From Mya arenaria (taxonomy: Eukaryota; Mollusca; Bivalvia; Myida; Myidae), in NCBI RefSeq assembly GCF_026914265.1, contig NC_069136.1, forward strand, positions 21,760,051 to 21,824,050: 64,000 nt of DNA. The letters are read 5' to 3'. The position numbers and the translations under genes were made by a program. Shown piece by piece: positions 337-39,000 of the stretch; the first letter of the stretch is position 1, and the number at the start of each line of letters is the position of its first letter. Below the pieces are notes generated by a model, which worked only from the letters and a program-made list of their open reading frames with translations, was not told the origin of the DNA and searched no databases.

Positions 337-3300
337 GGGAACAACTCAGCTGTCAGACACGGAAGTATTGGAGCTGTACCAGGGCACACATGTTCCCATT
401 GAAGATATGAACACATTCTACGGTTCAGTGAGTAAAACATGTTTCCATATATTAAGATATGAACACATTCTACGGTTCTGTGAGTAAAACATGTTCCCAT
501 TGAAGATATGAACACGTTCTACGGTTCAGTGAGTAAAACATGCTCCCATTGAAGATATGAACACATTCTACGGTTCAGTGAGTAAAACATGTTACCATAT
601 ATTAAGATATTAACACATTCTACGGTTCATTGAGTAAAACATGTTCCCATTGAAGATATGGACACGTTCTACGGTTCAGTGAGAAAAACATGCTCCCATT
701 GAAGATATGAACACATTCTACGGTTCTGTGAGTAAAACATGTTCCCATTCAAGATATGAACACGTTCTACGGTTCAGTGAGTAAAACATGCTCCCATTGA
801 AGATATGAACACATTCTACGGTTCAGTGAGTAAAACAATTTTTAACATGTTTCCATATATTAAGATATTAACACATTCTACGGTACAGTGAGTAAAACAT
901 GTTCCCATTGAAGATATGAACACGTTCTACGGTTCAGTGAGTAAAACATGCTCCCATTCTAGATATAAACACATCCTATGCTTCAGTGAGTAAAACATTC
1001 TCCCATTGAAGATATGAACACATTCTACGGTTCAGTGAGTAAAACATGCTCCCATTGAAGATATGAACACATTCTACTTTTCAGTGAGTAAAACATGCTC
1101 CCATTCAAGATATGAACACATTGTACATTTCAGTGAGTAAAACATGCTCCTATTCAAGATATGAACACATTCTACGTTTTCAGTGAGTAAAACATGCTCC
1201 CATTCAAGATAGGAACACATTCCACGGCCATGTAATAGGGATGATAACGGACCAAAAGTCCAATCCTGAAAAATTAGTTTGAATATGGGGGATTCAGGCA
1301 ATAGAAAGCGTTAAAGGCCTAAGACCCCTGTTAAAGGTTTTCAAAGCCATTTATATCCATTTTAAGGGTACTTCTTCCTATTTTTAATGCAAGTGTCCAT
1401 CAAAAACTTTTTAACTATACAATAGTCTGAAACTGAAAGCTTTCAATCCTGATTTCAGGATTAGTCCTGAACTTTATCATCCCTGATGTAAGTAAAACAT
1501 ATTCCCATTGAAGATATGAACAAATTCTACAGCTATGTAAGTAAAACATGTTTTAATTGAAAATATGTACACATTTTAGGGCTCTACAAGAAAGGATTTA
1601 CAATTTTGATTTTCATATGTTTGAATTTAAAAGTCATTTTGGACATGTTAATAGTATACTTTTTGTTTTTAAAAGAATGTTACATTTCAAAGCAAACCAT
1701 TGGTATTCTTGGGTGTTATGAACAATATTATGGTACTACAGACATATTTTAGTGATTCAAGTCTTACAATAAGATCTATCATGATGCATGTAAAGTGGTG
1801 TTTTTATGCTCTCCCAGGAAGATTATTGATGAAACCATGCATAATTCCCAGGTTTGATTAGCTACTCCTGGGATATTTGTTCATATATATCTGGCATGAC
1901 TTCAACATTGTTTTTGCTCTCCAGGGACCCATGCATCAACTAGTGGATATGTTTGCTCCTCCGGAAATGAATCTCATCACCAACATCACAGATGTAAGCT
2001 CACTTAAATATTTCTAACAATTAAAGGGCTGGGCACAAGAGAGACATTACTCCTTCTACTTCTCCTTCTCCTTCTACTTCTCATTCTATTTCTCCTTTTT
2101 TATTCTCATTATTCTTTTCCTTCTCATTTATCTTCTACTTCTAGTTTTCATTCTACTTCTCCTTCTTCTTATCTTTCTCATTACATTCCTCCTTTTCAGT
2201 CAACTTCTTCTCCTCCTTCTTCTTCTGACTAGTTTTTCATTATTTTTCTACTTCCCTTTCTTCTTCTCGTTCTCTTTCACTTCTAATTCTGTTTCTCCTT
2301 TTCATTCTCATTCTACTTCACCTTCTACTAAATATAGTTCCCTTTTCATTCTCTTTCTCATACTTCTTCCAATTCTCTTTTACATTATACTTTTACTTCT
2401 TTTTTTCTCTTTCTCCTTTTAAATCTTCATCTCAATCTCCTGCTACTTCTCCTTCTCATTTTATTTCACCTTTTTATTCCCCTTCTCCTATTTCTTCTTC
2501 TCCTTATCGTTTTAATTCTTATTCTTCTCATTATATTTTCTATCTCAATCTCCTCCTTTTACTCTTCTTTCCCAGTGGTCGAAATTAGCACAAGTCTGCA
2601 AGCCCTGCACTGGTAAAATGTCTTCCAGGCTTGCTCAAATTCTGAATTTTATATAGCAGGGCTTGTTCAAAAATATGATTCCATGCAATAGACTTATAGT
2701 ATAAGAATTCGGGCTTGTTCATCCGAAAGTCTAATTTCAATGACTGCTTTCCCCTTCTCTTTCTTCTTCTTCTCTCATTTTCATTTTTCCTTTCATCTTC
2801 CTACTTCTTTTCCTTTTCTCATTCTCTTAGCACATCTCCTGTTTATTCTATTACTTTTTGTATTTCGCCTTCTACTTCTACTTTATGGAGTTAGCATCTG
2901 CCGCTGAGCCTGAATTGTGAACACAAAATGAGACAGTTAGTTTGTACCAATGTATTTCAATTTTGAAAACAGCTGTTAACCTATCTGAATCTCTTTTGAG
3001 TCCATTTTCTGAGCACTAGTTAAAGTTCAATAGAAATATTAAGTATGGAAAGATGTGCCCTTTGTACAAGAATTGAGTCAACAAGAAAATTGACCAAGAT
3101 TGACTCTACTGTACTTACTTATTCATGGATGATATGTACATTTTTCAGTACTTCATTGAGAACAACATACCTTATGATCCCGAATATGTGTTCTACGACG
3201 TCAGAGTGAGTGAAGTTTTGTTTTATCTTCTAAGCTACTTCGGAAATATTGTGTTATTTTCACTACTGTTATTTTTACAACTATTATTTTCACTGATTTA

Positions 3301-6300
3301 TATTTTTACTCTTCATAAAAATCGACCTGTTTTAATTATAATGTAAAAAAAGCCTTTTCTGCAGTTGTTTTTTTAAATGACATTACCCTAAAAAGCTGTC
3401 AAAATCATTTGTTTTTCACATGATTTTCCAAAAAATGCTTATTAAATGTACATCTTTCTTAGTAAATGAATATTTCAACCACTGTCTTGCATTTAGATCA
3501 ACACAGATAATGAAAATGGGGCCGCATGATGAGGATATTTTCAGTCATTGGAATTAGACTTTAGGAGGAAAAGCTTGAAATTCTTACACACATGCTTGGC
3601 ATCAAAAACACACACCAAGCCCTGTTATTTCAAATCCAAAATTTGAATAAGCCAGGAAGTTATTTTACCAATAAAGGGCTTGCTAGCTTGTACTATTTTC
3701 ATGAAAATGGACATCTACAGTACATGTATTTTACGTGTTGAAATATGTGGTGTGTTTCAGAATGCAGTTCAAGGTGTCCATACCTCAGGACTTCTACATT
3801 CAACCATCATGAATGACCTAGGTATACATTATACAGAACTGCTAAGAGACCACTGAGCATTACCTTTCCATTACAAATTTCCATGAAATGTTTTACAGTA
3901 TTTGAAGATCTTTAAATCATTGAGGGTTTGATTATGTTTTTGATTGTTATTTGATACATTTCTTGAGGGAAAATGAACAATGATTTGGGAACAGCTCATA
4001 TATTTCTTGAGAAATAGAGAACAATGGTTTGGAAACAGCTCTTATATTTTTTGAGAAATAGTGAACAATTATTTTGAAAAGGCTCTTATATTTCTTGAGA
4101 AATAGTGAACAGTGATATGGTAAAAAGGCACTTATATTTCTTGAGAAATAGTGAACAGTGATATGGTAAAAAGGCACTTATATTTCTTGAGAAATAGTGA
4201 ACAGTGATATGGTAAAAAAGCACTTATATTTCTTGAGAAATAGTGAACAGTGATATGGTAAAAAGGCACTTATATTTCTTGAGAAATAGTGAACAGTGAT
4301 TTGGAAACAGCTCTTATATTTCTTGAGAAATAGTGAACAGTGATATGGTAAAAAGTAGGGATGCAAACGAATGGCAAAATTGATATTCGAATATTCGGTA
4401 ATTCTTTCGATCGAATATTCGAATATTCGATAACCAAAATACATCTTTTCGAAGTTGTATTAAACTATTATTATCATTCGCTTAAGTAATAGCCAATTCA
4501 TTTTGATCCTTCTTTGTCGTAGCAACTACGCGCGGCGGACCCTGATTTCCCCATATGAGCCTCTGAAATTCCCCATTTTTATATAGAAAACGGTAATTCA
4601 TTATGAACAATCAAAAATCAAAATCGAATAATTCCGCTGCCTTCATATTGTGAAACAATGTGAAATTAGATGGATTCCTAATCATATGGCGTAATGAGCC
4701 AATGGAGGGTCTTTCCGTAGGACGAGCAGTCTCGTTCTGGGATAGACCTCTACCTTATATACCAAACCAACTCGGGAACTAGTAAAATGATAAAACAAAA
4801 CATTTATGAATTTGATTCTTCTACATCAATAGAGGCAATATATCCTAAAACGCTATACTATACAGTAACATTTCAAAGCAAGAACAGTGCATCGAAACAT
4901 GGAAAACAAAAAGCAAATGCCATACATAGTATCACGGCAATTTGAGCAATGTTGCATAGCTTAATCTGCAACCAAGACAGCACATTAGTGTGAAGGCCGT
5001 TTCCTTAGATCCTTAATTGGCAAAGGCATTGGTGTCACTTGTCCAATAGCAAGTTGTAAAATTACGGGGACTTTTTATATTACCCGGCGATATGTCCCTA
5101 AATGACATATGACGCGTGTTTAGTGTAATGTCATCACATTCACACCTCTGGCATTAGGGGCCAATCATTGTAAAAACATGACAAAAGAACTAAATACACA
5201 ATTGCAGCCTTGTAGGTCAAAGGTTTTTTTTATTTTATTGATTCAACATTTTTTTTCGAATATTCGAATACCGATTTTGCCATTCGAATACCAAACGTTT
5301 GATCGAATATTCGAATATTCGAATATTCGTTTGCATCCCTAGTAAAAAGGCACTTATATTTCTTGAGAAATAGTGAACAGTGATTTGGAAACAGCTCTTA
5401 TATTTCTTGAGAAATAGTGAACAGTGATTTGGAAACAGCTCTTATATTTCTTGAGAAATAGTGAACAGTGATATGGTAAAAAGGCACTTATATTTCTTGA
5501 GAAATAGTGAACAGTGATTTGGAAACAGCTCTTATATTTCTTGAGAAATAGTGAACAATGATTTGGAAACAGCTCTTATATTTCTTGAGAAATTGTGAAC
5601 AATGATTTGGAAACCGCTCCTATTTTGCATGGGAAATAGTGAACAACGGTTTGGAAACAGCTCTTATATTGCATGGAAAATAGTGAACAATGGTTTGGAA
5701 ACAGCTCTTATATTGCATGGGAAATAGTGAACAGTGATATTATAAGAGCTCTTATATTTTATAAGTGAACAGAGATATGGTAAAGGCTCTTACGGTATAT
5801 TTCATGGGAAATAATGAACAGAGATATGGTAAGGGCTCTTATTTCATGGGAAATAATGAACAGAGATATGGTAAGGGCTCTTATTTCATGGGAAATAGTG
5901 AACAGAGATATGGTGAGGTTTCTTTTTTCATTGGAAATAATGAACAGGGATATCAATAGGGCTCTTATATTTCATAGGAAATAGTGAACAAACATTATTA
6001 TGGTGCGGTTTCTTATAAGCTCAGTGGTTTCTAGAAATTGTTCTGTGCATAATGTGTCAGTATTTGCACTTGCCGTTTCAGAATGCTGTAGAGGGCGTAC
6101 ATAGGAGCGGTGATATGCACCGCACTATCATGAATGATCTGGGTATTTCTGTCAGCGTTGCTTGATCAAATTGCAAGCTTATTGTTTGTGTTCGAAACTT
6201 CCTTCGTCCTTTGTTAAGATGTTCCTAAAAATGTTCTTTGCAGAGATGCAAGGATTTGCACGTATTCTGTTTATGTTTTTGAATTCATGCTCAATCTGTT

Positions 6301-9300
6301 TTCTTCCACTGTATTTATTGTAATGAAGGTGATTTTGAGGTTTGAAGTATTTTAAAAATTAATTGAAGGAAATATATATAATTTGTTCCAAACATGGAAA
6401 TTTCTAAAACATTTGTCATAGAAATATATATTTGGGATCAGATAGTGGATATTTTTTATTACATCTAATGTGATTAAAAAATTTGTTAAGATTATCCAGT
6501 CGTCATATTATTTTTTCTCTATTTTTATTACAGTAAATTTACTACTGAGAAAAGGAAACAATCAACTTCAAAACTAGCCCTCAAAGTGATGGTAGGAAAA
6601 CGTCAAACAAACAATTAATAAATGTTTTCTCCATTGTACATTCATTCTGTCTCTGTCTTTTTTTGCAGGGAAGTTCTTGGAGAAGGAATCCAAGACTAAG
6701 CAGTTTTTGGAAAAGCTTGTAAAAGCTGGGAAGAAGATGTTCATCATCACAAACAGTGGCTTTCCCTTCATGTTTGTATACTTTATAATTCATTCATACA
6801 TTGTTTGTGATGGTTAAAGCTTGTTGAAGCCCGAGCGAAGATTATTATCACAAACAGTGGCTTTCCCTTCATGTATGTACATGTATACTGTATAATTCTC
6901 TTAAAGCATTGTTTGTGGTGGTAAAAGTTGTCAAAGCCATGAAAAAGATGTTTATTATCACAAACAGTGTCTTTCCCTTCATGTTTCATGAATAATTCAC
7001 TAAAAACTTTTAAAGAGAAAAAGTCAAGGTATTGTCATAGCCATGTTGCTGTTGTTATCATCATCAGCATTGGTAGTGCCTTCTGCATGCAAAAACTTGT
7101 AAGTTTAGCCACGACTCTAATCTTGGCCATAACATAAAATGTTTGTGTTTTCAAATGAAATTTTGTGCATAACATATGCATTTAAAGCAAGCCCCATAAC
7201 TCTGCCTATGATATGTGTTGAGTTATTTCCCTTTGGCGACCGAAAATAATCAACAGGTGACATTAGCATTTGCTTTGTGACTCTCTAGTTGATAATGGTT
7301 ATAGTTTTTTACACTTAGCATTTGGGTAAAAACTTTACTTTTGATAATTTTTTTACCATGTCATAATTCTAACCATGTAAAGTATTGTATTATCGGCTTC
7401 CCACTAGCTTGCATTGACAATTTAAGGCTTGTTTTGAGGAAATACGGTATTTGCCGGTTTTGGGACCATCTGGTGTCTAGCCCCTTTATATTAATTGGTA
7501 CACACCAATGGCTGTGGAGTTTTCACTAAATCCTCGAGACGTTTTCCCCTTCAGAGATGCTGGTATGCGGTATATGGTTGGGCCAGACTGGCAGGATCTG
7601 TTTGAAATTATTGTCGTCAATGCCAGAAAGCCCAAGTTCTTCAATGAATCCACTAGGTAATAGCAATGGGCATTGATTATTTCAATTTGAATTATTTACA
7701 TTTTGGGTTAAAAATATCCTTGAGGTGGTCAATTTAATTAATGAATACATACATTGTGAAATTAAAAATGTTACTTGCAATTTCTTGCATATAGAGGGTT
7801 TCTGGACAGTGTGACAATGTTTTGGCATAGCAGGTTAGCAATCATAGAATAACAATATCTTATCAAGTGTTTCCAGTCCAGATACCGGGGTAATGAAATC
7901 CTAGCAGAGGGAACTTGCACACGCTAACCAGCCATGTTGCGTATTTAAGTGTCAGATTTCTTTTATCCTGACTTGAAGCTTATGATTGCATGCATGATAT
8001 TTTCCATTTGTGTAAAAAATCGATTGTAGAGATTACTACTTTTGTATAATTTTTATGTACATTCTATGAGGTTACAGTCAAAACTAGTTATATCAAAGTC
8101 ATTGGGACGTAGGAAAATATCTTCAGCTTAATATGCAGTTTGACATAATGAATACAGAAAGTGTGTGAAATTCGACCACATGGGCTGAAATTTGATGTCA
8201 ATACCGGTATATTGAAAAAATCAACATCAATCAAGCGAAATTGTTTTATTTAGAAGCGGAATTGTTTTAATATTTAAAAACAGAAGGAATAAATTCAGGA
8301 CCAGGAAAAAAGATGGACACAACCAGAAAAATTGAGATATCACAGATTTAGAGTTACTGTAATATTATTTTTCATTTGAAAACAGAAGAACACTTTACCT
8401 TTCTATTTCCACCAGGCCATTCCGAATGTATGATCCTCTCAATGTGAAGACTTGGGAACGAGTGAGAACACTGGAGAAGGGAAAGGTTTACGTACAGGTA
8501 TGCATTGAACATGTGGTAGCAGTGGTGATGTTTAGTGGTTAGTATATCAGACAGTGGCTCAGAGGGTTTTGGGTTTGATCCCCATTCAGAGCTTCATCGA
8601 TGACAAGTACTGGTTATTGGCCAGGAATGCTTAATGGTTCTTAATAACATGTACATAGCAGATTTTTAAAAAAGTCTACATTTTTTTTTTCACTATGAAA
8701 TGTCTTCAGAGCTCATGTTCTTTGTTCATAACTGTGAGGTAAAATTTACTTGGTAAAATAAATTTTACCTCATAAATATTGGTTTAAACATATTTTAATT
8801 TTGATAGAAACACACAAAGTATGCAAGGTCATACATACAATATCAACGTATAGGGTTGGACTGGAAGATAAACAACTTACCAAAGCCCCTTCCCAACCTC
8901 ATAAATATTACCTCTTGCTTGTGAAGTTTCATCCACATAGCATAAATGTGACTGGTATGAAGTCATAGCCAAAAAGATCCACCTGTATAAATTCAGATGT
9001 TAGATTTCCACATATCTTACACATATGTATAAGTCCGGGTATATAGTTTATATATTGTTGTAAATTCCACTTTTATAAATTATTTGATATTTAAAAGAAC
9101 TCAAAAAATGAACAAAGATTCAGTGGTCAAAATTAACACAAGCCAGCAAGCCCTGAACTGGTAAAATGCCTTCCGGGCTTGCTCAAATTCTGAATTTTGT
9201 ATAGCAGGGCTGGTTAAAAAATTTGACGCCAAGCAATAATATAAAATTTCAGGCTTGTTTATCTAAAAGTCTAATTTCAATGTCTGAGGATTAAGGTTAG

Positions 9301-12300
9301 CTAGTTCATAAAATGCTCATCATAGTACTGAAGCTTGAACGATTGGATTGAAAACAACTTCAATGATTTTCCCCATGATATTCCCCATTTTTCAGGCAAA
9401 TTTCATGACTTTCCCCATTTTCAGAAATTCTTAAATTATTCTCCCATTTTCAGGGCAACTTAAATTATTCCCTCATTTTTAGGGCAACTTAAATTATTCC
9501 CTCATTTTCAGGGCAACTTAAATTATTCCCCCATTTTCAGGGCAACTTAAATTATTCCCCCATTTTCAGGGCAACTTAAATTATTCCCCCATTTTCAGGG
9601 CAACTTCAATGATTTCCGGCACATGACTGGCTGGCATGGATCTAAGGTGCTCTACTTTGGTGATCATGTGTACACTGATCTTGCGGTATGTTTGTAAGAT
9701 ACTTAAAGCTTCTGGAGCAATCTTATCAACAGGCGTACGACTAAATATCTTAAAATAAAGCTTGTCAATGGTGCATTAACGTAAGTGAGTGTCAGAAATT
9801 GAACAGGAAGTTTATTAGCTTTGCCGCAATTGAACAATATTGATATAAATTTCAAACTAGTTATTTTAAAATACTCAGACCAAATGATTAAAAAAAATGA
9901 TTGGAAGATATGTGCATTGATAAGATGGCTCCTATAGGTATGGTATGGTTTTATTTTTATTTATTTTACCCCAGACAAGCAAATTTTGAAGGGGGTAAAT
10001 TGGAGTCACCCTGTGGTTGGTCTGTCTGTTGCAATTTTCCTTGTCCGGAGCATAATTTAAAACTGACTGATGGAATTTACTCAAACTTCATACAATGATA
10101 CAAACATGATAAGAGAAGTGCAGTGAACAGGAACCATAACTCTACTTTAAATTATTACAGAGTTATTCCCCTTTGTTGCATTTGTTGACTATATAGCATC
10201 TAATAGTATGAATGTCTCATTCAGTTCAAGTAGATTGACTGGTCCTTGTTTTGTTCTAGGATCCATCCCTGAAGCACAGCTGGAGAACAGGAGCCATCAT
10301 TCCTGAGCTCGAGGTTGGTTTAATTATTGTCTGGGCTTTCTTGTGGCCTATAAAAAAAATCATCAGTGAGGTATAAAGTTTGTGTCTCTGTAAAAGACAG
10401 TAATAATACATTTGATATCATTCACAATTTTTACATTTTTACCTTGTTTATATGCCTGTTCATAGAACAGGTTTGGAAATGTTAGTGTTTTTTTCTCCGC
10501 AAGCAAATCATCAGAGGTTAATCTGATATAGCTTTGAAAGGGTCTGAGTGAGTAGAGCTCTTGACTGAGGACTTTAAACAAAAAAATCATTATAGAGATG
10601 GATCTCAGCAAAGTCACCATATTTTGACTGTTCCATTTGCTTAAAGAATTCATTAAACAAAGCTCTGTTAGTCAATTATCACAGCAGAATTAACTGTTTC
10701 TGCCGATGATGCATTTTTCTAGGATGAAATAGAGAAGATGTTATCCGAGGAGTACAAAGTATCCGTGCGCTGGCTGATCATCTTACAGAGACTGCTCGAG
10801 GAAATACAGGTATAATCTCAATGTATATCTCGCAATTATATTTCAGCTTTTGCAAACAAGATATTAAAGGGACTCCCTCATGTTCTGTAAAATGCTCTCT
10901 CTATTTAATTTCAAAATAAAGTGTGGCAAATTATTAGGAGCGTTAAAACTAAGATACTCTCAGACACTTTGCAAAATTTCCACCTTAATGTTTGTTTTAT
11001 AAGACCATAAATTTAGCTTTCATAACATGTCGTCTAGTTGAACATATCTAAATTAATTAAAGCAGTGCCAAAATTTTAGCGCACCACATGCTAGCATTGC
11101 TTTACAAAAAGGCAATTTTTTTTGGATGAAATCTGCCCACCAACCCCATTGTTTTTATATGCCCATTTTACGACAGGATGGGTTCATCTGTGGCAAGTAG
11201 GCAGATGGAGGGGCAGCGTCCACTTATTGGTCAATGTTTGTCAAGAAGCTTTTATCATATAATATGGACATTACATGTACGGGCATCATATTGAAGCCAA
11301 TTTCAATAACCAGCCATGTCTGCCCAGTCTATAGACTTATGGCCCTTGAATTGCTTAAATAAAAAAACAAACTTGTTGTTTACATTTGGTGAGTTTTTGT
11401 TCAATCACCATATTAACAAACTTAGACCTTATGTCTAAGGCCAAAATAACTTGACCAGTTTAAATTACCAGCCATGTTTCCGTAGTCAGTTTAGAGTTGT
11501 GCCACTTGAGATGCTTGAATTTAACAAACTTAAAAAAAAACCATCAACATAATTTTGACTGGCATATCTTGTGACAGTTTGCCACTTTAATCTTTTAAGA
11601 ATGCTGGTGAGAATCTTACATTATTTTTCTTATGCCTAACTAGTTGAAAGGCTTAAAGGTAAAGTCCATTTGTACAAATGGTTTGTGTGTATGTCCCAAA
11701 AAAGCTACGTGGATATTTTAGTTGCCTTGGGTTAATTTTAACATTAAAAAGACAGATATAAACCAGCAAATGGCAAAATTGTATAAAAGAGCATAAATTC
11801 AGTTAAATATATTTAGTTAGTGACTGAAGTTAATCACAATTTAATACATGCAAATTTAACTAACAGTTGGTCGATAGTTCGGAACTTTTTAGTTAAAAAT
11901 GTTGTTTACAGCATTGTTGTTAACTTTAAAAAGTTAACTTTTTTATGATGTGCTCATAGATGTCTGTCCATGACTTCCAGCATAGTTAAGATTTGAAAGT
12001 TAACAATTATGATGTATACTTTTACATTAAACTTAAGTTCTGAACATTCGGCCCATTGTATTAAATATCGATTTGAAAAAATTCTTGTTGATATGAGATC
12101 ATAGATAATATATATTGTGTTGTGGTAGTTAGTTTATTGTTTATTCCTGTGTTTTTGTAGTTTTTCATATTTTTTGTAGGCTTCACGGAATGGCTCTCAG
12201 GTTGACCTTCTTTATGACCTTTATGCTATTACGTTAAGAAGCACCCTTGTATCATTCATTCTCTTTGGTTTAGTTGGATTTTTTTTTTCTTATTTTCAAT

Positions 12301-14863: not shown

Positions 14864-14944
14864 AATGAATCATTTTCTTGATGGCTTGTGAAATACTCCC
14901 GTAGATTTTTCTAGAAATGTTTTGTGTTCAGTGTGTTTAGTAAT

Positions 14945-15105
14945 CTAGGGGCCAGTGCTATGGGCCTGTGTTCAAGGGGGCCTGTTCTAGTGGCCTGTGT
15001 TCTAGGGGCCTGTGTTCAAGGGGGCCTGTTCTAGTGGCCTGTGTTCTAGGGGCCTGTGTTCTAGGGGGCCTGTTCTAGTGGCCTGTATTCTAGGGGCCTG
15101 TTTTG
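14945..15105 (+). repeat. GC-rich direct repeat in the NT5DC 3' UTR
   Basis: Repeats of ggggcctgtgttc, gggggcctgttctagtgg and cctgtgttctagg occur about seven times, with ~20-bp steps. Its GGGG runs contrast with the AT-rich surroundings. Confidence 0.8.
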
Positions 15106-21826: not shown

Positions 21827-21832
21827 TTTATT
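21827..21832 (-). terminator. Candidate polyadenylation signal of CUL3
   Basis: tttatt on the + strand reads AATAAA on the - strand. It is followed in the transcript direction by ggcttgtgttgtc, a GU-rich element. It would give a 3' UTR of about 730 nt after the stop at 22562. Other AATAAA hexamers exist further left. Confidence 0.35.
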
Positions 21833-22586: not shown

Positions 22587-25500
22587 CTGAAAATAAAAGA
22601 ATCATATTTAGAATAACCATGTTTAGGAATTTACAACATAATAAGTTAACATTTTCACAAAAGTATAAGAGTAAGATTCAGAATTTTAAAAAACAACAAC
22701 AGAGAACAAGAATACCAAGATTTTTTTACTATACCAAGATGATTGTTACTATTAAGGGCTATTCTAGTAAAACGTATAACCCACAGGGGGAAGGCAATTA
22801 TTTAGTATATGGGTGGGTGTCTTTTTTTGCTTTTTGGACCCCGAAAGGTTAAATTTGCTTCTGTAGGGGGGTCGTATATTTTAAAAGTGCTATCCCTCTG
22901 GGGGTTATCTGTTTAAATGGAATAGCCCTGATATGGACACTATAATACATTTTTTTATATTTGGAATTCCGCTTTCTTAAATATTTAATTTCTTAATAAC
23001 TGCCTTTAACACAGATTCAATATTTCTATTGATCTTATACACAGTCAACATTATGACCTTCTCAAACACATGCAATGCTGTACCCGCAATGCTGTTCATC
23101 TCCTTTCATTAAGAATGCAGCAGAACTGACACCAAAGCATGTCTGTTTTTCAAGTCAAACAAGCGACATCATTCAACAATTATAATGGGCCTTGCTTTAT
23201 ATGTGTGAATTGTCTCTCACAATGTGCATAAAAAGTTTCATTTGAAATCATAAGCAGTTTTCAAGTTATAGCAAAGGTTTACGTTTTTGCACAAGGACTT
23301 CAACAACGAAAATGACACAAAGGCTATGACTATAATTTATGGCCTCCATGAGGGCGGAAGGGTGCTACTAAAAAAGACAGGGTACAGTACCCTTCCGTCA
23401 CTCCCATAACTAGCGAAATCCCTTAAGTTTGTTTACCTATCCTCAGGTGTTCTTGCTAGATACTCTCGCTCTATAAGCCCTTCTATTCTCTTCTTGATCA
23501 CCACCGGACTTGGGAGGAACCGGCTCTTCAGCTGCTCTGTACACTGTACGGAGAGAAGACGATACATGTTACAAGTGTGGGAAGGATATTTATGAAATTT
23601 TATATATCGATGGCTAAAGTCAAAATGCAAAAGCTAAAATTTCCAAAGTTTCCAGAAGCAACGTTTTAGGTATTTTCATGGTGATTTGATTATATTAATT
23701 TTTTTTTTACAAAAAAGTTACAATTTTTTGAAGTTCGGCATTTCTATTTTTCTGCGAAATGTCCAGTCATTGTTTGACATTTTGATCATATGATACAACA
23801 CCATTTTCTCATAGGACTATTTATAAGGCATTTTGAAAGAAGATGCAGCTCGTCTTTATGATTTTAGTGCTCTAAATGTTCTAAAAGTGGAAGAAAATGC
23901 AACTTCGGCATTTTAAAGTGAGGCCATATACAGGTTATAGATGCTTTTGCATACAAAATGAAAATTACAGAGACAAGCCCAGAAGCCTAAAATTAAACAA
24001 AGATCCTGTTTAAAGGGACTCGCTATTCGTTTGTAAATGCAATTTTCTCTTTAATTTCAAAATAAAGTGTGGCAAATCGTAAGGGGAGTAATAAAACTAA
24101 GAAACTTAACAGTTGGAACCCTTCAGCAAATCTTGATATTTGCATAAATATCGTCTTAGAAGACACCAATTTTCAATAGCATTACTAACAGCTTTGAGCA
24201 ATTTGTTGTTGTGTGATTGATTGATTGACATTATCACGTGATGTTGTCAATGTATTGTTATTGGGCTGGTATGTGCCAAATGAAAGAAAATAAAAGGGCT
24301 TTTAACTCCATGAAATCATCACGTCAATAATTTTAAGTTTGAACAAAAGCTTCCCTAAAATCTCCAATAGTTACAAAGTTATGATCCCTTCACATAATTT
24401 CAGATGAAACATTGGCAAAACAGTGCCCCTATGTCATTGGCAGGGAATGAAAAATAACAAAAATGACAAAATAAGGGCAATGGTACATATAACAAACCAT
24501 CACCACACATACCTCTGTTACTAGCTGATTATGCAGCAGTGACTTTCGTGATTTCATGATCCGCACAAGGGCAGCCTCGATCGTTCAACGGGGTCAAGGA
24601 AATATATCATACATCAGAATGCTAAACAATGATATTCCATTTTTTAATGACTTGATATTCCATATCTTGCCAACCAGAGCCTTAATGGGACACAATTTTT
24701 AACCAGATTGATAAAACTTCCTACATAAATCTGTTATACCAACTTTAAAACTTGTACCAATTTAATGAGGTTATTTTTTTTGTAAATGAGTTAGATTTAA
24801 CAATATTCAGATTTCTACTGCGATAAAACCAAGGATGGTATTCAATTTTGGTCTGAATTGGATCTAAGAACAATGCAGCTTATGGTGTTACTGGTAACGA
24901 ATAACTGACCTATACAGTAAATTCAGTCAATGATGTGACCATGAGATTAACTTAAGATGCATATATATATTGAATACCACCCCAACGCTATGACAATACA
25001 CATGTTTTTCTACACACAAAGTTGAGGAGCTATGACAGTGATTTTTGTATAAAGGATATTCATGTTTCCGGTCCTCGTCCACCTTGGTTCTTGTCTCTCG
25101 CCTCTCTGGTTCCGCCTCGCCCTTACTGGCCGCCACTGAAATACACCATACAAAATCACTAACACTCACAATAATGTTTCCATGGTATACTGTAGATCTT
25201 TTCAATTTCTCAAGATCATACATGCCATATTTCTGGGAGGCTTCTCAGGGGATTTACTAGTGGGTTTTCATCAGTTGTAATTAATTGTCATTTTTTACAT
25301 GTTCTTCTTAAAAGGGCACTTTATTTAAACTTTTTCTTTTTATCTGAAAAGCACTGTATTGTGCTGCTAACAAAATGCATTGCACAGAACAGTTGTTGTC
25401 ATTTCATCAAAGCACACCAGTGGTCGAAATTAACACAAGCCCGCAAGCCCTGCACTGGTAAAATGTCTTGCTCAAATAATGAATTTTATATAGAAGGGCT

Positions 25501-27050
25501 TGTACAAAATTCGATGCCAAGCAAATTTATAAGAATTCTGGCTTGTTCATCCAAAAGTCTAATTTCGATGACTGGCACACATAAACCACTGGATGCAAGG
25601 GACTAGAGCGAAACTACAGGGATTTCCCAACTGCCTGGGGATATGGCATGTATGACTTAGATGGATTGCATAATACTTTCTACAACAACAAACAAAGGCA
25701 TGAAACGTCTCTAAATGCTTTCTAAAATCAAATTTTCCATTTGGTAATTACTAATATAATAATAAAAATGTCTACAAAATCAATACTTTAAATTTATTTG
25801 TAGAATTACCGGTAAAAGGAGTGAACATTTCATCCTTCAAAATAAATTCTGAAAATTTCTTTTTGTGTTCTTGTCTGATTGATAGTGACCAAATAAATCA
25901 AAGTAAGTTTTTGATTTAACTTCAACTAAAATAGGTCAACAAAAAACACCATGCATTATTTAAAAATCAACTTACAGTGGTCGAAATTAGCACATTAGCC
26001 CGAAAGCCATGCAGTTGTAGAATGTTTTCAGACTTGCTCAAATTTTGGATTTTTATGGCAGGGCTTGTTGACCATTTTTTATGCCAAGCACCAAGTTCAA
26101 ATTTGGGCTTGTTCAATCAAAAGTCTAATTTCGATTACTGAACAAAGATATAAATATATACCGCATTTAAAATTGTGTTCTGTAAGAATTTATGTAAAAG
26201 TACCATTTTAATATTTAGAAAATACAAATTATAATCACTGAAACCCAAGTAGTAAAAACATGTATCGAAAACTGAACATGAAATACACAACAAAGCGGAG
26301 CATTTTTTGGCACAATATTTCTTAAGCAATAATTTTCAATTCAGGTGTAAAAATGAAAACTGTAAAAATGATTTTGTAAAAAACAGCACATTACCTGTTT
26401 GTATTTTTACTCGGAACAATTTGGATGTAAACTGATCGTTGACTGTGAAAACATGGCTTGGTTCTGAAAACACATTAAAAGTTGTGTCATATGTAGAAAA
26501 TACAATATGCTATTAATACTGCATTTAGATATGAGAGGTTTTATTCTATTTAAGTGGATTTTGACTCAAAATCTGCAAACATTCATCTGAGTAAAAATTG
26601 CTATGATAAAAATTCATTTTAATAATGCACTATTTTGTCAAATGACTTTATATATGGTTAATATTTGAATATTTAACTACTGGGCTTGTCCCTGTAGTTT
26701 TCTTGGTAATAATTGTTTAAGCCGGTCGTACCTATTTCCTTGGTCTTGGGTTCCTTGTGGAGGATTCGCTGCGCTATCTTCCCGACGGCTAGGGACTGCA
26801 TGGCTCGTAGAAGGTCCTTCTCAGGGATGTCAGTCTCGCTGCGAATCTCCTGAAGGTCACATGTTGGTACAATATTTTAATTTTGCTAAAATGTCAATTA
26901 CAATACATGACTGAACGGTTTTCTCATACATTTTCAGATGGGGTCCTTGGGCCCTCTTGGTTCATGAAATAGGGGACTCTCTTGATTTCATCGGGCCCCA
27001 ATAAAAGATTCCATGGTTAAGAAATAAGGGTCTAACATAGTTAAAACAAA

Positions 27051-27086
<36 letters not shown>

Positions 27087-30000
27087 ATTTATTGTAGGGG
27101 TCCATATAAAATGGCAAATGGGGGTCCCTAGCAAGATAATTGAGTCAGAGTCGTTATGAGCTAAAAAAAGATTAGTTATTTCCAAAATCAACATACATTG
27201 CAAGAAGTAACAAGGGTAATACATTTTTTTATGACGACTAAGTTGTGCCTTGAAATGTGTGTTAGGAATTCCTGCCCTTCATGTTTATTACTGTGTCAGG
27301 AACATTCCGGCTAACATCAAACAATTTTTAGTTAATCAAAGTACTGTGGAGCGAATGCCAACAGCAATTTTCGACCCATTATTTTTCCCAATCAAACAAG
27401 GGGCATACCGGTAACTTAACAACTATTTAATTTAAGTCATAAGTCTAGCTTCACAAGTGTGAATTGTCTCTTGCAAGAAGTATACCAAGTTTCATCATTT
27501 TCTTAAAAATGTTTATTGAGCTTTAGCCAAGGTTAAGGTAAATTTTAATAATGCTGAAGCGCCAACATGAAAGACTGGGCCTAGTTCAAAATATGTGCAT
27601 TGTCTCCTATAACAAATATAACAAGTATACCAAGTTTCATCAATATTTTGGAAATGTATTTTGAGCTAAAAGAAGGTTAAAGGGTTTTCTTTAATGATGC
27701 TCAAGCCAATGACACAAGAGATACAACATCTAGATTTTTCTTTAAAAACAAATGACAAAAAAATTCAATATTTTAATGCAACCAACAAACCTCATAAGTC
27801 CATTTCTCCCTATTATTGAACTGCATAAGAATGCACATCTGATAAGTGGAGACCTGTATGATGTGTTTACGTGGCCCCTTTGACGAGCTTGCCCCTGCAT
27901 TTTCACTCGCGTCCTCTTTCTTAACTCCGTAAAACGTGGCATTAAGGTCGGCAGAGCCGAGCTGAGGCTGAAGCGTGAGCTGACGTCCACTGTGCTTGGC
28001 CAAGTAAAACCTGTTTCACATAAATTAGTTTATAGATCTTCATATAAAAATGTTTGCCATATTTAGAATACAATTACACGATTAATGTTACCGTATTCAA
28101 AGTATATAACTCTTTAACAATCCCTCTGTTGTGCTAGCTTTTATAAACAGAGATTTTATTGACCAGGCAGCAGAAGGGCTAAAACCATTTTGGCCATGGC
28201 TTTTGGGGGTGGAGGGAGGGGGGTGGCGGGTGTGGGGGGGTAGGAAAGGGGGAAGCACCATGCCACAGAAGCAAATCAGGCTCTTAAGAAGCCCTTTCCC
28301 AAGCTATCCTGATTTCACATTTTAAGGAAAATGGAGTGTCAATGTTGATAATGTAAAAACAAATAGAGTTACAACCAAAAACAAGTAAATCAATTAAAAA
28401 AAACGTTTCTTGGTGCCTTGGAAAAATGAGATCCGTGAAAATCTGTGCACAACCCTTAATATACCAATTTCCCCCCTGCAGAGTAAAGGGTCATGGATTT
28501 GATATCCACTAGAGGCACATAGCTACAAGATATAACCATGTATAGCGTACCTGCGGAACTGTTCAAAGGCTAGCCTGGGAGAATTGGGTATGTTACACTT
28601 GGGAGTAGCTGACTGTGTGGGCCAGTAGCCAGTGGTCAATACTCTCACTGTTAAGTCCACGCCCTGTAAATTTACCTGAAATATTTAATAACATTGTCAA
28701 CATTTGGCCACGATGTACTTTTGGTATGGGTTTACATAATGTTCTTGGCCTTTTATGCATTAGGGAATTTTGGCAACATATATTGTGAAATTGGGGAAAA
28801 AAGTTCAACCATAACTGAATGTGATGATGATGAAGACAGCTCTGCAGATTGAATACCAACTCTAATTTTGTTGTTTATTCGGTCAAATAAGGGAAATAAT
28901 TCCCCAAATATTAAAGCCGGAGTTATTGGCCATATGACACATGTGCATATGGTCTCATGCCATGGTATATGTGTAAATATCTTCAACAATTTTAAAGAAA
29001 TATCCAAGGTTAAATCTATAGCATGCCACAGATTTCAACAACGATAGCACGAAGGCTACCATGATGCCATGATTTTTTTTTTCGAAAAATAGGCTACAAA
29101 ATACTTCTTTCTGGTTTAATTCTGTATTTCACCCAAAAAGAATGCATGGTTCTGTTTTAGTGATATTACTTACATTTGCCTGGGTGATGAATGTCTTAAA
29201 CTCATCCATGTAACTGTTGGACACAGTCATATCCTTGAACATGCCCTCCAGCTTTGACGTAAACTGGCACCCACATTCCGTCTGCAACATAAACAACACT
29301 GTCACTTAGTCCTAGTCCTAATTGAAAAGGGCAGGGTGCTAGGTCAGAAAGGTCACTTTTGATGTGCCTTGAATGAGTCTTAATGGGGCACTTACAAGGG
29401 TCAATGTTCAATTCATATAGTGTATGAGCTGAAACTAATTCCAATACTAATAATTCTTTACTTGTCAAAAAAATTATGAACATAATTTATTATTCTTATT
29501 ATTTATATTCATATTTGGAAGTTGAAACCTAAGGTTAATTCAAATTTCTAACATTTTCTATGAATTTTTTATGCTTTAATTAAACACTGCTGATTCAATG
29601 CGCCCTTTTGTTCCTCAGCACCCGGTCCCTTTTCTGTAGCAGCCTGTCCTTTTAAAAACCTAGCTTAAACTCTACCTTAGTAAATATAAGACTCGATCTA
29701 ACCAAATGTCTTGAGGTCAAGATTGAGCATTAATTGGTCTTAAGGTATAAGTGTCCATCTCTCACCCAAGAGGTTGTGGGTTCGATATCACCGGGGGATA
29801 CTTTCCCACAGCCTCTCAAAATAGACACCAGTACTGGTTTTTACCCAGGAACCCAATAGTGATTTTATAAACTTAACTTTGTCACAATCTGATTAAAAGG
29901 AATTAATATAACCTAAGATTTGTTTACGAAAACTGACCTTGAGTTTGGAGATCATGTTTTTCTCAGAGTCGTCCGACACACTCTTGTTGAGGAGGAGTCG

Positions 30001-33000
30001 TCTAGCGAGATGCTGCTTGTAGTAACGCTCAAACACGTCCTTCTCCTGCAGGAAGCGGAACAGAACCATGCTCTTGTCCAGCACTATCTCAATCTCCTGC
30101 TCCGACATCTGAAACATTACACCGAGTTATAGTGATCGCAATGATCGCATATTATCAAATCAATTATCATCAATGGATGCCCGGCATTGGCAATAATCGT
30201 AAATAATCTTAAAAAACAATCAATACTTGTCAATTGGTGCCCTATATTGGTGATAATTGATAACTTTCATTAATAATCGATGTTCATTGAACTTTATTTT
30301 TCTTAAAAATTATTAAATAAATGTGTGAAAATATTATTTTTTTATTTGTTGAATCATAACATCATATATTCAAATTTGTGTTCTGATTGTTCAAAGAAAT
30401 AGAGGATAATTGTTTGCTTCAGTGTAAGATCGCTATATATTTCACGAGTGGCGAAGCCATAAGAGCCATATTCACTTTGGTGTTCAAGTTTAAATCAACT
30501 ATAAGATATGCAAATACTAATTTTTTGGCTAATATGGAATAGAATGGCGGCATGCCCTGCCCCATAACTTCAATGTGTGTATGAACATGCATGGACATAA
30601 TGGACTTTGACAAGATACATGGACGTTTTACAACAATAAAAAGCAAATATTGTGCGCATTTTTTCCATTTTAAGAAAGCACTTTCAGGGATGTGATTGAC
30701 CTGGCAGCCGGAGGGCTGAAACATTTATGGCCATGTGTTTATGGGGCGCTCTTTGGGTCAAAAGAGCACTGCTGTAGAAGAAAAAATGGCTTTTTAGAAG
30801 CTCTTTTGAGGGCTCTCCTGACTTAAAATTTGAAGCAAACTGGAATATTGACTCATACAACTGAAAGCAACCAAATAATTTTTTTTAGGTTATTTATTTT
30901 TATTTTTTGTGTGTGTGTGTGTGGGGGGGGGGTCTCTGGGGCCATATGCTCCGCGGACAAATCACATCCCTGACTTAGCCCCTTTTTGGGCCCACCCTGC
31001 CCTTTTTAATTTCTGGCTAAAATAAAACACTTTAAGTACAAAATAAATTTCATTTTAATGACACACTGGTTCGTTTATCACGTCATTTTAACAACGATCT
31101 CTGATACGAGTTTTGACATGGAATATGGACAATTGTATTCTGTGTAATGAATTGCTTAGCAGATTTATGATGCATATATAATAAAAACAAAAAAATATTT
31201 TCTTACCCCTTTTACTCCCTTTTTCAGCTTGTCGTCAATAAACAAGGACAAGTATTCCGGGGATTTGGGATTCAAATTAATGAAATATTCAAAGTCACTT
31301 GAAACCATTTTCTTAAACAAATTGTCATTACTGAAGGATTCGTGTAGAAAGTGGTCAAATCTGTCCTTTAAGTCCAGTAAATTCTGAAAAAGAAAACAGC
31401 ATGTTTTAAATACTTTAAATTTCACTACAGTTTAATTTGGTGAATAAAAAAAAAAACTGCTTTTTTTCTGATTATAAATGTAAACTTTCAAGAATAGATT
31501 TTTAATCTTATTAAGTCTGTATCTTGTTTGTAAAAGTGAAGAGAGTATCAGATTTAACCATATTTGTTTTACAACGCCTGTGAAATATTTTTTTACAAAA
31601 TAATCTACGGTACATCATGATTCTTGGTACATGATTGTTTATCATGTGAATGTGGTCTAATATTGCAGGGGAGACAATATTTCCCCAGTCATCCAGCTTA
31701 GTAACCAAGTATCAAACTCAAATGAACCCTTATTAGGAATCTTTCCCCGACCACACTGATGAGATTTGGTGGACAACAAGAGGGAACCACACCATAACAT
31801 TCTAAATATGTGATAGCATTCTTACTTGAACATATGTTATAGCATTGCTACCTGGATATATGTGATGGCATTGTTACCTGAATATAATTATGTGATGGCA
31901 TTGTTACCTGAATATATGTGGTGGCATTCTTAACATGTGATGGCATTCCTACCTCTATATATGTGATGGCATTCTTACTTGAACATATGTAATAGCATTG
32001 TTACCTGGATAAATGTGATGGCATTGTTACCTGAATATATGTGATGGCATATTAACTTGAAAATATGTGATGGCATTTTTACCTGAATATATGTGATGGC
32101 ATATTAACTTGAATATATGTGATAGCATTGTTACCTGAATATATGTGATGGCATATTAACTTGAATATATGTGATGACATTCTTACCTTTACATATGTGA
32201 TGGCGTTCTTGCCATCTTCCCCCTCCTCGGACACAAGAGCCTTGCCCTGCTCCCGGAGGTAGCCACTGATACATCCACACATCGTTTTTAGGCCGTTGGG
32301 GACACGCACAAGCAGTTTGTACATGCAGCCAAGATCTGTAGATATATACATGTATGTACACACAAGCATGGTACAGGGATTGACACCACAGCTGGAGGGC
32401 TGAAAAGATTACGGCCAGGGGTGTGAGGGGGGCGCTTTAGGCCCTAAAAGGGAATTAAGCACCCTGCAGTAAAAGCAAGTTACTTTCTATAAGCCCCATT
32501 GAAGCAAACTTGAGTGTCAATACTAACAAAAAGTTACAACAAACAGCAATTAACTTTTTTTTAATCAGTAAAAAAAAAAATTGGGGAGGGGGTGGGTCCC
32601 TGGAGCCATTAGATCTGCAGAAATCAGCAAATATGCAGATATCCCTGATTGAATTATGCTACACTGCCCAGGACATTATGGGGTTTACATTTACTTACCA
32701 GATAAGTTTATAGCAGCAAACTAGCAAGGAGAATCTTAAGATGAAAACATTACAAAAACACTGCTCAATTATATTTGGTTATCTTAATATTATCCCGCAT
32801 ACCAATACTTCATGTGCTTCATATTATCCTTAAACATTATTTCCCACTGTTATTCAATGATTCTGTGTACTCCTACAACACCATTTTATGTGACAATGGG
32901 CCTACTTTTTACATTAACATTCAAACTCTAAAAAATCATAAACACACATGCGATCTGCAGAACTTTTCACAAATATTAAGACAACTGATCTAGCTACTCG

Positions 33001-36000
33001 TGTTTTAACACAAAATTATCTCACTTTTAAAAGTTAACTAAAGTTAACAATGATACTGTTAAAGTTTGACAAGTGACTGAACAACCAGCAATATGTAAGT
33101 TGAAATCTAACTTGTACTTGTAACAAAGTGAACTCACCATCTGTCTTGTTGTTCTTGAGCATATGCACAACTCCAGAGTTCTCCATCTGCAGTAAGGAAA
33201 TAGAAAAATATGAGTCAAATGGAAAATATTGGCAGTTTGGCTCCCTTAATGGATTAACTTACATTCATAATGCATTGCATAACGTAAGACATACATGCTC
33301 AGAATTCATATTCATGTACAATTACATAACTTGAGTCTTTTGTTGACCTGAGTTGACCATGCTTTTGGGTTCTTTAAATATGGACATATACTAGAAATGT
33401 TAATCGAAGTTTCGTTAAAATATTTGTTAAAATATGAAATATTTTAATACTTAATTTTTCAGACCTGAAAATCATTTTGGTTTTCCAGATTAACTCTATG
33501 TGTCAAGCAGAACAAACAAACTAATAAATCTATAAATATATCCTTTTGTTTCACATCGAAAAACGCAGTATCTTACCCAGATCCTTTTTTTAGTACTTTT
33601 AAGCAAAGAATCATTATAATTTTTTGTTAACTGTTTGAAAGAACTAGTCTTAATCTGAAGTAAATCCATTTTTATATTTTAAACTACAGAGAAAACTCCA
33701 TAGTTCATTAGTTGTTTTTCAATCAAAATAAGTGTATAACTCAACTATTATGATTTTATTTTAATATTTTGAGAGTTTTTTTTGTGAAACAAAGGTTTAA
33801 GCTGCCACCAAGGCTATGACAATACCACCAGCCTTTCCATTATCAGCAGCAAAACTTGTTTCATTGACTGTTGAAGAAAAATATAGAGAAGGTACAAGCT
33901 TTAACCCTCAGGCTGCTGATGGCGATTTTAAAGGCTTGCAAACAGCTTGGAACCAGACCAGACACCGAGTAACTCGGCGCCTGGTCAGGTTCCAAGTAAA
34001 ATGAATGAAATTAAGAATAAACCAGACAACATTTTTGAGCAGACGAAAATTTACCCAGCATGCCAAGGGTTAAATTAATCAGAAACTTGTTTAAAATATA
34101 TGAGTTCTGAATAAAGCCGATTTAAAGGCTGTTTTACCTCTACGATGGTCTTCATGTGTTTGGAGATGAGTTCCTCCTCAAGGACACGCACTATCGGCTC
34201 CTCGGTGGACTTGTCCAGGTAGTGGGTGGCGCGCTCAGCCTCCTCATTAATCCGTGCTTCAACCTTCTTGATGTACATAGACGCACTGTTTTCCGCCAGG
34301 AATTTCTGGCTTTCAGCCTTTTGAAAAAAAAGTTTGAAACTAAGACAAATTTGGGGATCCATAAGCTCAAAATCTTCTATGAAATGATATCATGATGTCA
34401 TGTAACATTTACATAAAGCTATGAACATGCTAACAAAGACTTTGCTGGTGTGCACTAAATACTTAAGTTTCTGCCAATGATTTTTGATTATCAAACCGCC
34501 AGACACCAAGTGAAAAATTGCCATTAGATATTAAAATATATATTAAAGGCTTTTAATGAATGAAATATCAATCCTATAAAAGTACATATGTATATTAATA
34601 AATAATATTTCAGGGGCTAGAAATCTTTAACTATAAAGCCAGACTTAAGAAAACATACAGACTTTAACACTGTGAGCACATACCATATAGAATTCCCTGG
34701 ACTCCAGTAGGAAGGGCTTTTCAAAATCTTCAATATACACCTGTCTTGTCTCTATACCTAGTATCATCAGCATCTGACATGCATTCTTCACAGCCCCTCT
34801 GGAATAATGGAAAAATTACAATGGATACAATTGTGAGCAGTTAATGATAGATGCCAATCATTTATAGCATTTGCTTTTTTATTTAATCTTTAAAAGGCCA
34901 GTTGAGCTGGTGATTTTTTTGTTGATATTTAGGGATTGAAATTTCAATTGATTCTTAATTAAATTTGATCATTACACAATAACAATAACAGCAGTCCCGT
35001 CAACTTGAACACAAATATGGAGCTCTATTAACAGAGCTGACAGCACAGTTAGTCCTTCCCAAACACACTTCATAGCATACCTGTCTACAACTTCCCCACG
35101 TCGTTCCTTGGCGACCATATCAAGCAGCGTGTGGCGGAGATGTTCGTTTATCGACTGGTGTCGTACCACTTCATCCCGGAATATCTTCAGGCCCAGGTTG
35201 TATACATTGTCTACATTGTTCTGTTGTACATACACTCTATCCTGTTGGAGTACAGTAAATAATTTGATAACCACTGAAAAAAGCTACCGACAAGCAGATA
35301 TAAATCATATAATAATAACTTCAGTGACAGTGTTGATAAAGTTATTAACACAAAGATTTAACAATATTATATGAAATATTAAATATTCGACCATCTTAAG
35401 CAGTCTATCCTAAGAAGGTAGAAGGGTGCATATACATTTCTCCATGAGGACAGAAGGGTGCTATGAAGAGAACAGGGTGCAGAACCCTCTGATAACACTC
35501 TAGCTAAAACCCTATGATAACTGTGCGAACATAACATACCATATACATGAGTATGTCTCTTATCATGACCATGGAGGTCTGATGGTCACTCCAGGCACTG
35601 TTAAGGGTCAGCAGAAAGTTGTTGTTCAAAGAGCTCAGCACATCAACTTGTACCTACAACAATGATGATCAATGGTTTATTTACATTTCAAGATCAATCG
35701 ATCTGTTTAATATTACATTCTCTTTTTCTGATTTTATAAAACGAGATCATGAAGTAAATATTCAGAAGCTTTTTGCTAGAAACTGTGGTTGTATTGGTCA
35801 CAATCTATACAATGATTATGAAGTGTTTTTTGGAAATTACTGTTATAAACAAAATAATAATACAATATTATGATAAGCTATAGGCTTAAAAAATGATTGT
35901 TCCAAGGTATTTTTGTGTCACAAAATGTCAAACAAACTATATCTTATTTGTGGACTAAATGCTTTTTTTTGCGAAGGCATTATAACCACAATTGAAAACT

Positions 36001-39000
36001 TATATATTTTTGTTCCTGAGTTTACCTTTTTGCAAAACAGTATATTCTTTAACAGATCTAAAAACTGTCTGCCAAATATAGACTGCTTGTACCTTTTTTA
36101 CCAAATGTTCTGTGACCACTTCCTGCAATCCGGAGTACAATTTCTCGCCATGTTTGTGTAGGACCATTGTGTAGGCATTTCTGTAGAGCTCTTCAAAGCT
36201 TAGCCCACTGTTGTTTTTCTTCTGGATTTCCTGTATGGCATTTTTCAGCAGAGCCCAAATGTTGTCAACATACTTTTCATCCATAGTCATCTAAAACATG
36301 ACATGTACATTGAAATATACTTTTCATCCATAGTCATCTGAAACATGACATGTACATACATTTTCAGTTGAAATAATGTCCAACTACATTGTATAGAGCT
36401 ATTTCAGCCTATTTTCACAAAAGAAATGTCCAAAAACAGATAGGGAAGGTAGGCATCATATAATTTTTAAGGCTTTATGTTAAAATGCTATTATCAACAT
36501 TGGGCTATGGCATTCAAGCAATCAGTTAATCAGTATTACAAAAAATTAACCAACAGACTATAAAAACAGTAGGTCCAGGGACTCCTATTTTGTAGGTAAG
36601 AGTCGTGTAACCTGAACAAGAAGTTGTTGTTTGTTAGGCCTTGTGGCGGTGTATTACAGAAGAAGCAACAGACACGTGCATACTCAGGCTAGTCTTAACA
36701 TGAAAAGGTACAGGAGACAGTGGGATTTTTTCACCATTTTGGGAATGGGGCCTTGGAGTTGGGGAAAAAATGTGTCACCTTGACTGAAATTTGGAATTCC
36801 TGCTGCCTATGAAAGTACTAGAAGGCTTTAAAAATAGGCACTAAAAAGAAATATATCAAGTTTATTTATTCATAAATGTACCAACCTAACAAAAAAGGTT
36901 TCAGAGTCGAACCTCTTTAACAAAAAATTTAACTTTTTCTTCAAAACATAAAATCCTTTAGTATTGAGAATTGGGCTGAATATCAGTCCATAATTAGTCA
37001 GAAAAAAAGCACTGGGAAAAGTTGTACCTGGCTACAAAATCACCCAAAGTATTATCTATTGTTTAGATCTGTGAGCTAGAAAACGACGAGATAAAAGGCA
37101 ATTTGTCATATTTTCCAAATTTTATTGAACTTCATTACACTTGAATGGTCTGTGGGTAATAACCAACCAGCCGAGGTCAGCAGGCCAGAGTGCTGTGCTA
37201 GTGTTTTAGTTGTTGTCCATTCCAGCCCACTTCAAGAATTATTTTCCTACCAATTTTACCATACAATACTCAAGCATGTTCTAAACCTATCCAACCCTAA
37301 TCTTAATTAACCTGTTTTTTTAATGTTTTTCTCTGTAGCATGTGAGTTGATTTCGCCATCCGTAGTGTATAAAAGACTGACCGGACGGGACCAATTCCAG
37401 ACCAACAGAAATCAACAAAAATCTCCATATTGATCCGGAAAAGGAAGTTGAATAATAAGACTGGCCGATCTGGAAGGTGTATTAAATTATAAAAATATGT
37501 ATTGTATTGTGAAGTGCATTGATAGTTTCAATACAATTTGTAAACAATACGTTTTAATGTTGAGCATCAATGAAATGTTATCCGTTTCATGTTGACTATT
37601 TACAAATGATAAAACATCAGTTTCAGATAATCAGTCATCAAAATTAGACTTTTGGATCAACAAGCCTGAATTATTATACAATTGCTTGGCATCAAATTTT
37701 TGAACAAGCCCTGCTCTATAAAATTCAGAATTTGAGCAAGCCCGAAAGACATTTTACCAGTGCAGGGCTTGCGGGCTTGTGCTAATTTCGACCATGGGAT
37801 AATGATAACAAATATTTGATAATGTACAAAAGGGGCAAATTCAAACGATTATTACTATTTTTAACCAAGTGGTTCCATAAAATATAGCAAAGTAATTTGC
37901 GTCAAAATTGTAATTGCTTATCGTTTGACTTGTACATTTATTCTGGCAGGTTTGTTATTGGTCCCTAATCAATTTGAGCTATTTTTGATGGGGTCACGGA
38001 CACTACGGACCATGGACATTACCGACCAGACACTACGGACCAGATTTAGGGACATTACGGACCAGATTTAGGGACAATACGGACCAGATTTAGGGACATT
38101 ACGGACCAGATTTAGAAATTTACGGACCATGATTTATATTGTTTTTAAACATTTTTTTTAATTATTCACTCATTGGTCTGAAATTTGTTAATAAATACTT
38201 GAATATTAGTGCTCAGTATGACAATTATCTTTAATGTAACTAAAAAATCCCATGAAATTCCAATGTTAAACATCAATGTATTTTTAATAAAGTATAATGA
38301 TAATTCGAATAATAATGAATAATAATGAACGTAATATGTGTTTATCTTATAATTGTAAATGTGAATATTAATGTTTTCATATGTGATCGATTGCTTTCTG
38401 AAATAAAATTTGAATAGTCATATTTGTTTGTTTTCCGTTTCATCTGATTTAATTGAAAGTGCGCCGTTACAATGGGTTTTCACACTTTTATGATTGCCAA
38501 TTAAAGGTTGTCAGTGTAAAGTTTGTTTCTTTTGTAATATACCGCCGATAATTACGGGTACAATTATAACTAATTAAGGCAACAGAAATTGCCAGTTTGA
38601 AAAATCAGTTTGCAAGAATTGCAACAAACACACATTGTTTATTGTTTATATGTAAACACTGATATGTTCTTATATGTGCTCGATTTATTTTGGTAAATAA
38701 ACTGTTTTGGGTTCATGTAAACACTGACATGTTCTTATATGTGCTCGATTTATTTTGGTAAATCAACTGTTTTGGAACATATATCTTCTGTTGCTTTTAA
38801 CTGATTTAACTGCCGATCTATTCGAATTTCACGCGATTTTTCACAGTTTTATGGAAGATATATCGTCATACTGAGCACTCATATTCAAGTATTTATTAAC
38901 AAATTAAAAACTAATGAGAGAATAATTAACAAAAATGTGTTTAAATCATGGTCCATAAGTTTCTAAATCTGGTCCGTAAATTTCTAAATCTGGTCCGTAA

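Follow-up and report, generated by a model that had tools for sequence, protein, structure and literature searches.

Do tandem duplications begin preferentially at splice junctions, or do they begin anywhere in and around introns and survive wherever they are tolerated? The question is raised by a stretch of 64,000 nucleotides from the bivalve Mya arenaria, which we call the window (positions 21760051-21824050 of NC_069136.1, hereafter contig C15, in a genome of 1,216,080,610 bp in 18 contigs). The window holds the genes NT5DC3, on the forward strand, and CUL3, on the reverse strand, and in these two genes five tandem arrays repeat the exon-intron junction that they border, three of them a donor and two an acceptor. 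An initial annotation of the window had described the arrays, had judged five such hits unlikely by chance, and had proposed that tandem duplication either starts preferentially at splice junctions or is tolerated there. As we argue below, the arrays are most probably minisatellites produced by ordinary local tandem duplication that is indifferent to junctions and tolerated at exon edges.

The frequency of such arrays was assessed in ten further genes, all of them conserved and rich in exons: PRPF8, CLTC, SNRNP200, CUL1, CUL2, CUL5, CUL4, POLR2B, SF3B1 and EFTUD2, the last three of which are partial. The cullins were located through their family and the others through protein fragments, and the 253 kb of sequence were taken before any look at their arrays, a further 5 kb covering the second copy of CUL4; ATP1A, SERCA and VCP were also located in the genome and stand outside the sample. 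Exon models were built by a spliced-alignment script and comprise 225 exons, those of CLTC joining as a single uninterrupted frame. We dropped edges that lack an assigned splice site, and thereby kept 406 of the 450 exon ends. The window contributes 51 edges, namely 30 of the 34 exon ends of CUL3 and 21 of the 26 of NT5DC3 (exons N11 and N12 and the acceptor of N1 are excluded); the coordinates used in the counts for the NT5DC3 acceptors of N2, N4b and N8 are off by one to two bases, which leaves the copy search unaffected. The window's ankyrin and kinase genes have no exon models, and their edges lie outside all counts.

An edge was counted as duplicated if a segment spanning it by at least 7 bp on each side had a copy within 500 bp with a score of at least 40, local copies of low complexity being excluded before counting. 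Tandem Repeats Finder (TRF) alone was not used, because the acceptor duplication of CUL3 exon C2 (A5 in Table 1) is absent from its list at the default score. By this test, a junction-spanning local copy is found at 10 of the 406 edges of the ten genes (7 of 203 donors and 3 of 203 acceptors), or at about one edge in 40, and at 5 of the 51 edges of the window; in SF3B1, one junction-spanning copy scores 37. When the flanks of all 457 tested edges were shuffled 20 times, none of the resulting 9,140 trials gave a copy scoring at least 36, and 8 gave one scoring at least 30. The five arrays of the window score 78 to 155 and are therefore no chance matches.

How often, then, would junctions be spanned if duplications were placed at random? 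Introns in these genes are rich in small tandem duplications, since, with the window genes counted in, 937 of the 7,275 points sampled in introns (12.9%) fall within a local copy. Under our null, each array is collapsed to one unit, and one unit per event is placed at random in the same introns. The ten genes hold 52 array events, 11 of which span an edge, and random placement predicts 10.9 ± 2.8 (standard deviation; a formula gives 10.8). Raising the threshold through 40, 50, 60 and 80 yields 11, 9, 7 and 3 observed events against 10.8, 10.4, 9.8 and 8.4 expected, and a reach of 1000 gives much the same result. Spanning events are present in nine of the ten genes (at least one in each, in all but CUL5), which bears out the part of the initial proposal that concerns tolerance. 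Thus, random tandem duplication together with tolerance at exon edges explains the counts, and a preference for junctions is unneeded.

Two other baselines were tried and rejected. A null based on coverage sets the 12.9% of intron points within a local copy against 2.6% of 310 edges, and makes junctions appear falsely depleted; we dropped it because an array of many copies counts many times in the intron and only once at the edge. A first count of events, over seven genes, gave 8 observed against 15.3 expected, or about 8.8 with a stricter unit length, and was replaced because a duplication whose copies lay apart entered it twice.

The exons of the two window genes were placed by tblastn and their borders then read. 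The queries were NT5DC3 proteins of Ruditapes, other molluscs and Mya, and a human CUL3 sequence. Three of the window's exons agree fully (100%) with an NT5D3-like protein of Mya arenaria. The alignments place exon ends at the borders of all five arrays, with a GT or AG in position; these borders are splice junctions, and the arrays are indeed built from the junctions to which the initial annotation had assigned them (Table 1). In each array the outermost copy stays with the exon, while the remaining copies are intronic, mostly with an intact GT or AG; each array is confined to one intron, between consecutive exons. The acceptor array A3 is accompanied by a 14-bp exon-like fragment at 9355-9368. 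The Mya gene model of NT5DC3 lacks N1 and N4-N7, among them two exons with donor arrays; since the omissions affect other exons too, we conclude nothing from them. Another exon of NT5DC3 occurs in two versions, at 3761-3821 and 6081-6142, both of which align to Ruditapes residues 229-249; judging by this alignment, they are likely to be mutually exclusive exons.

Table 1. Junction arrays of the window, the exons that they border, and the insert within A1 (window coordinates).
Feature	Coordinates	Strand	Description
NT5DC3 exon N1	335..427	+	tblastn and borders; acceptor end approximate; donor GTGAGT starts at 428
A1, donor array of N1	388..1227	+	17 units of 49-52 bp, the last partial; first unit is exon edge plus donor
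MITE-like insert inside A1	1232..1492	.	inverted ends AGGGATGATAA; ATGTAA on both sides; limits approximate
A1 continuation	1497..1584	+	two more units, past the insert of about 260 bp
NT5DC3 exon N5	6669..6771	+	tblastn and borders
A2, donor array of N5	6711..6999	+	3 copies of about 105 bp
A3, acceptor array of N8	9383..9614	+	8 units of about 29 bp; the last holds the actual acceptor and the exon edge
NT5DC3 exon N8	9599..9685	+	tblastn and borders
A4, donor array of C8	31797..32207	-	16 units of about 26 bp
CUL3 exon C8	32187..32336	-	tblastn and borders; acceptor end approximate
CUL3 exon C2	36092..36290	-	tblastn and borders
A5, acceptor duplication of C2	36270..36357	-	2 copies

The copies within an array can be compared column by column, with partial copies excluded. 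Among 15 copies of A1, 1 of 30 GT letters has changed, compared with 6% in the other columns; the corresponding figures are 1 of 14 AG letters against 14% for seven copies of A3, and 3 of 26 GT letters against 11% for 13 copies of A4. The splice letters therefore change like the other columns, and spare sites appear, on these small numbers, to be neither removed nor protected. As for the growth of A1, the copy at the junction is best matched by one three units (150 bp) further downstream, and TRF also fits the array with a 258-bp period, which suggests that blocks of several units were duplicated; the distal units are among the more diverged ones. Because the insert, which resembles a miniature inverted-repeat transposable element (MITE), sits within A1, the array is older than the insert.

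As for the splice-site turnover to which the initial annotation related the arrays, copies retain usable signals, and the spare splice sites frequently equal the real one in score. A switch to the compared copy, which is the best-matching and not always the nearest one, would however keep the frame without a stop in just 2 of 16 junction duplications, those of CUL4 and CLTC. For example, the shift of 29 to the spare acceptor of A3 is out of frame. In POLR2B and EFTUD2 the compared copies have no splice signal worth naming. CLTC has one in-frame, stop-free copy, which adds 31 residues. The CUL4 array, no less clear than the five window arrays, lies at about 52183.4-52184.3 kb on the minus strand of C15 and consists of 16 units of 42 bp, the first of which is the exon edge. 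Downstream, its junction ACAAA/GTATGT recurs 15 times; 10 of these spare donors keep the frame without a stop and would add 14 to 140 residues. The Mya CUL4A-like gene model, the one independent model examined and not itself RNA evidence, splices from the exonic donor and contains no duplicated peptide, and the Dreissena protein has no insert. We find no sign of the relation to intron gain that had been suggested for the window arrays, given the CUL4 model and the confinement of each array to a single intron.

CUL4 is present on C15 at 52.17 and 52.79 Mb as an inverted pair, 99.8% identical over 2,658 bp, and in the one pair compared the 16-unit array occurs in both assembled copies with the same spacing and unit number. 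By our queries CUL4, CUL5, SF3B1 and ATP1A each occur twice on one contig, the pairs lying at 52.17/52.79 Mb on contig C15, 11.75/13.88 Mb on contig C6, 10.62/11.95 Mb on contig C1 and 1.99/10.04 Mb on contig C5. These doubled loci are either recent duplications or uncollapsed haplotypes.

Several observations weigh against the indifference of duplication to junctions. In the window, 5 of 15 events span an edge where 1.75 are expected (P = 0.02), and the window lies above expectation in all eight settings (P = 0.008 to 0.052). On the window alone, therefore, the judgement that five hits are unlikely by chance was sound; it does not extend to the ten genes, and we discount the window excess because the hypothesis was formed on the window. 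All 12 genes pooled give 16 spanning events against 12.7 expected (P = 0.18). In the ten genes, moreover, there is a mild excess of arrays that border an edge at 0-49 bp, 12 where 6.7 are expected (P = 0.03), or 23 if the spanning arrays are added (P = 0.075). Three near-edge arrays, two in CUL2 and one in POLR2B, place one of their copies in an exon and may descend from old events that spanned the junction; if these are counted, 14 events stand against 13.5 expected with whole unit lengths. The deficit of junction arrays at threshold 80 (P about 0.01) indicates that tolerance may be incomplete: young, strong arrays may be less tolerated at junctions, or the exonic copy may escape homogenisation. 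The sample, finally, is one of ten genes, and the slippage by which we suppose copies to multiply is a step that we infer. The excesses just listed would all be expected if tandem duplication started preferentially at splice junctions, for instance because exon edges were prone to breakage or to difficulties in replication. The ten independent genes, however, agree with random placement at the lowest threshold and are about equal to it or lower at the stricter ones, and the Poisson limits for 11 events, 5.5 to 19.7, exclude a junction enrichment above about 1.8-fold, smaller values being compatible with the ten-gene sample. We consider a preferential start unlikely.

Still less likely, in our estimation, is that selection keeps the arrays because spare splice sites aid the recognition of exon edges or give new isoforms. 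The scores of the spare sites and the in-frame copies of CUL4 and CLTC are what such selection might favour, but splice letters are kept no better than other columns, use of the compared copy would break the frame or introduce a stop codon in 14 of the 16 duplications, the CUL4 model takes the exonic donor, and the frequency of the arrays equals the neutral expectation. The doubling of some loci in the assembly, such as CUL4 and SF3B1, raises the possibility that the arrays are assembly errors. This we think highly improbable, as units within an array differ from one another, A1 bears a later insert, and both copies of CUL4 contain the 16-unit array, although the two could be alleles or could have been assembled from one set of reads. 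Least probable of all, and in our opinion close to negligible, is that the units derive from a dispersed mobile element whose ends resemble splice sites. Elsewhere in the window, arrays are associated with mobile elements (at about 4356-5341 and 38029-39048), but the units of the junction arrays include the gene's own coding edge, and four units of A1, searched against the genome, match at this locus only (5 matches; the search passes over very common words and was run for A1 alone of the five units).

Local tandem duplication without regard to junctions, our preferred explanation, would operate as follows. Duplications, which cover about one eighth of the sampled intron sequence, would strike in and around introns irrespective of the junctions. 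Wherever a duplicated unit by chance crosses an exon edge, its outer copy would remain joined to the exon and continue to serve as the splice site; the CUL4 gene model, with its join at the exonic donor, suggests that this copy is the one normally used. The remaining copies would arise within the intron, where they are presumably nearly neutral, and would then multiply, probably through slippage or unequal exchange, and diverge. More tentatively, the random birth of minisatellites might provide about one exon edge in 40 with duplicate splice sites, of which an in-frame minority could feed isoforms and, rarely, shifts of splice sites or new introns; we hold this extension to be doubtful.

The window contains other repeats and genes as well. 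A minisatellite of 44-46-bp units at 3958-5990 is split by an insert of about 1 kb (4356-5341), whose ends are inverted copies of TAGGGATGCAAACGAAT, with GTAAAAAG on either side; we take it to be hAT-like. In an intron of CUL3, two 22-bp arrays at 38029-38136 and 38942-39048 are mutually inverted, resembling a foldback-like mobile element. Outside NT5DC3 and CUL3 lie two long minisatellites of about 40 to 50 copies (52503-54246, with 32-bp units, and 54568-55723, with 22-bp units), an ankyrin-repeat gene (46206-46883, +), a retroelement reverse transcriptase (50136-50963, -) and a protein kinase (56103-57239, -), presumably IRAK-like.

Minisatellites at junctions have been described in amphioxus gene by gene, and have been considered as a way in which new introns may arise. 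With a second, distant phylum in which such arrays are common, and with a baseline by which they require no special targeting, the idea becomes a rate, and spare splice sites become a by-product of the turnover of intron minisatellites. Splicing in Mya must pick among up to 19 near-identical sites, so that these genes offer a natural test of exon-end recognition. In the open-licence literature we found no report of junction-spanning arrays in bivalves. The phenomenon itself is already known from amphioxus; the bivalve case and the neutral baseline are new.

Among the systems with which the Mya arrays may be compared, human genes in segmental duplications have variable tandem repeats at exon-intron boundaries (PMC2812944). 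As in Mya, minisatellites there overlap exon-intron borders; the human repeats, as reported, make recent paralogues differ in the length of exons or introns, whereas the Mya arrays lie in single conserved genes, in which we see no change of protein. In the potato gene for an RNA-dependent RNA polymerase, an intron was gained via a duplication crossing a boundary (PMC4974935). There, too, duplication across the intron-exon boundary provides spare splice signals, but in Mya no new intron lies between the copies, and the partner splice site is in the neighbouring exon. The closest likeness is to the amphioxus 'mirages', which include those of PGBD5 and troponin C (PMC3902484). Both consist of tandem copies of an exon edge and the adjoining intron, on the donor or the acceptor side; in both the spare copies bear splice signals, though in Mya not every copy does; and their unit lengths overlap, at 10-160 bp in amphioxus and about 26-105 bp in the Mya window. 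The amphioxus account includes length differences between haplotypes and reverse-transcription polymerase chain reaction, whereas the Mya case rests on assembled sequence and gene models. Relative to the mirages as described there, Mya adds a bivalve, arrays of up to 19 units, and a baseline of random placement.

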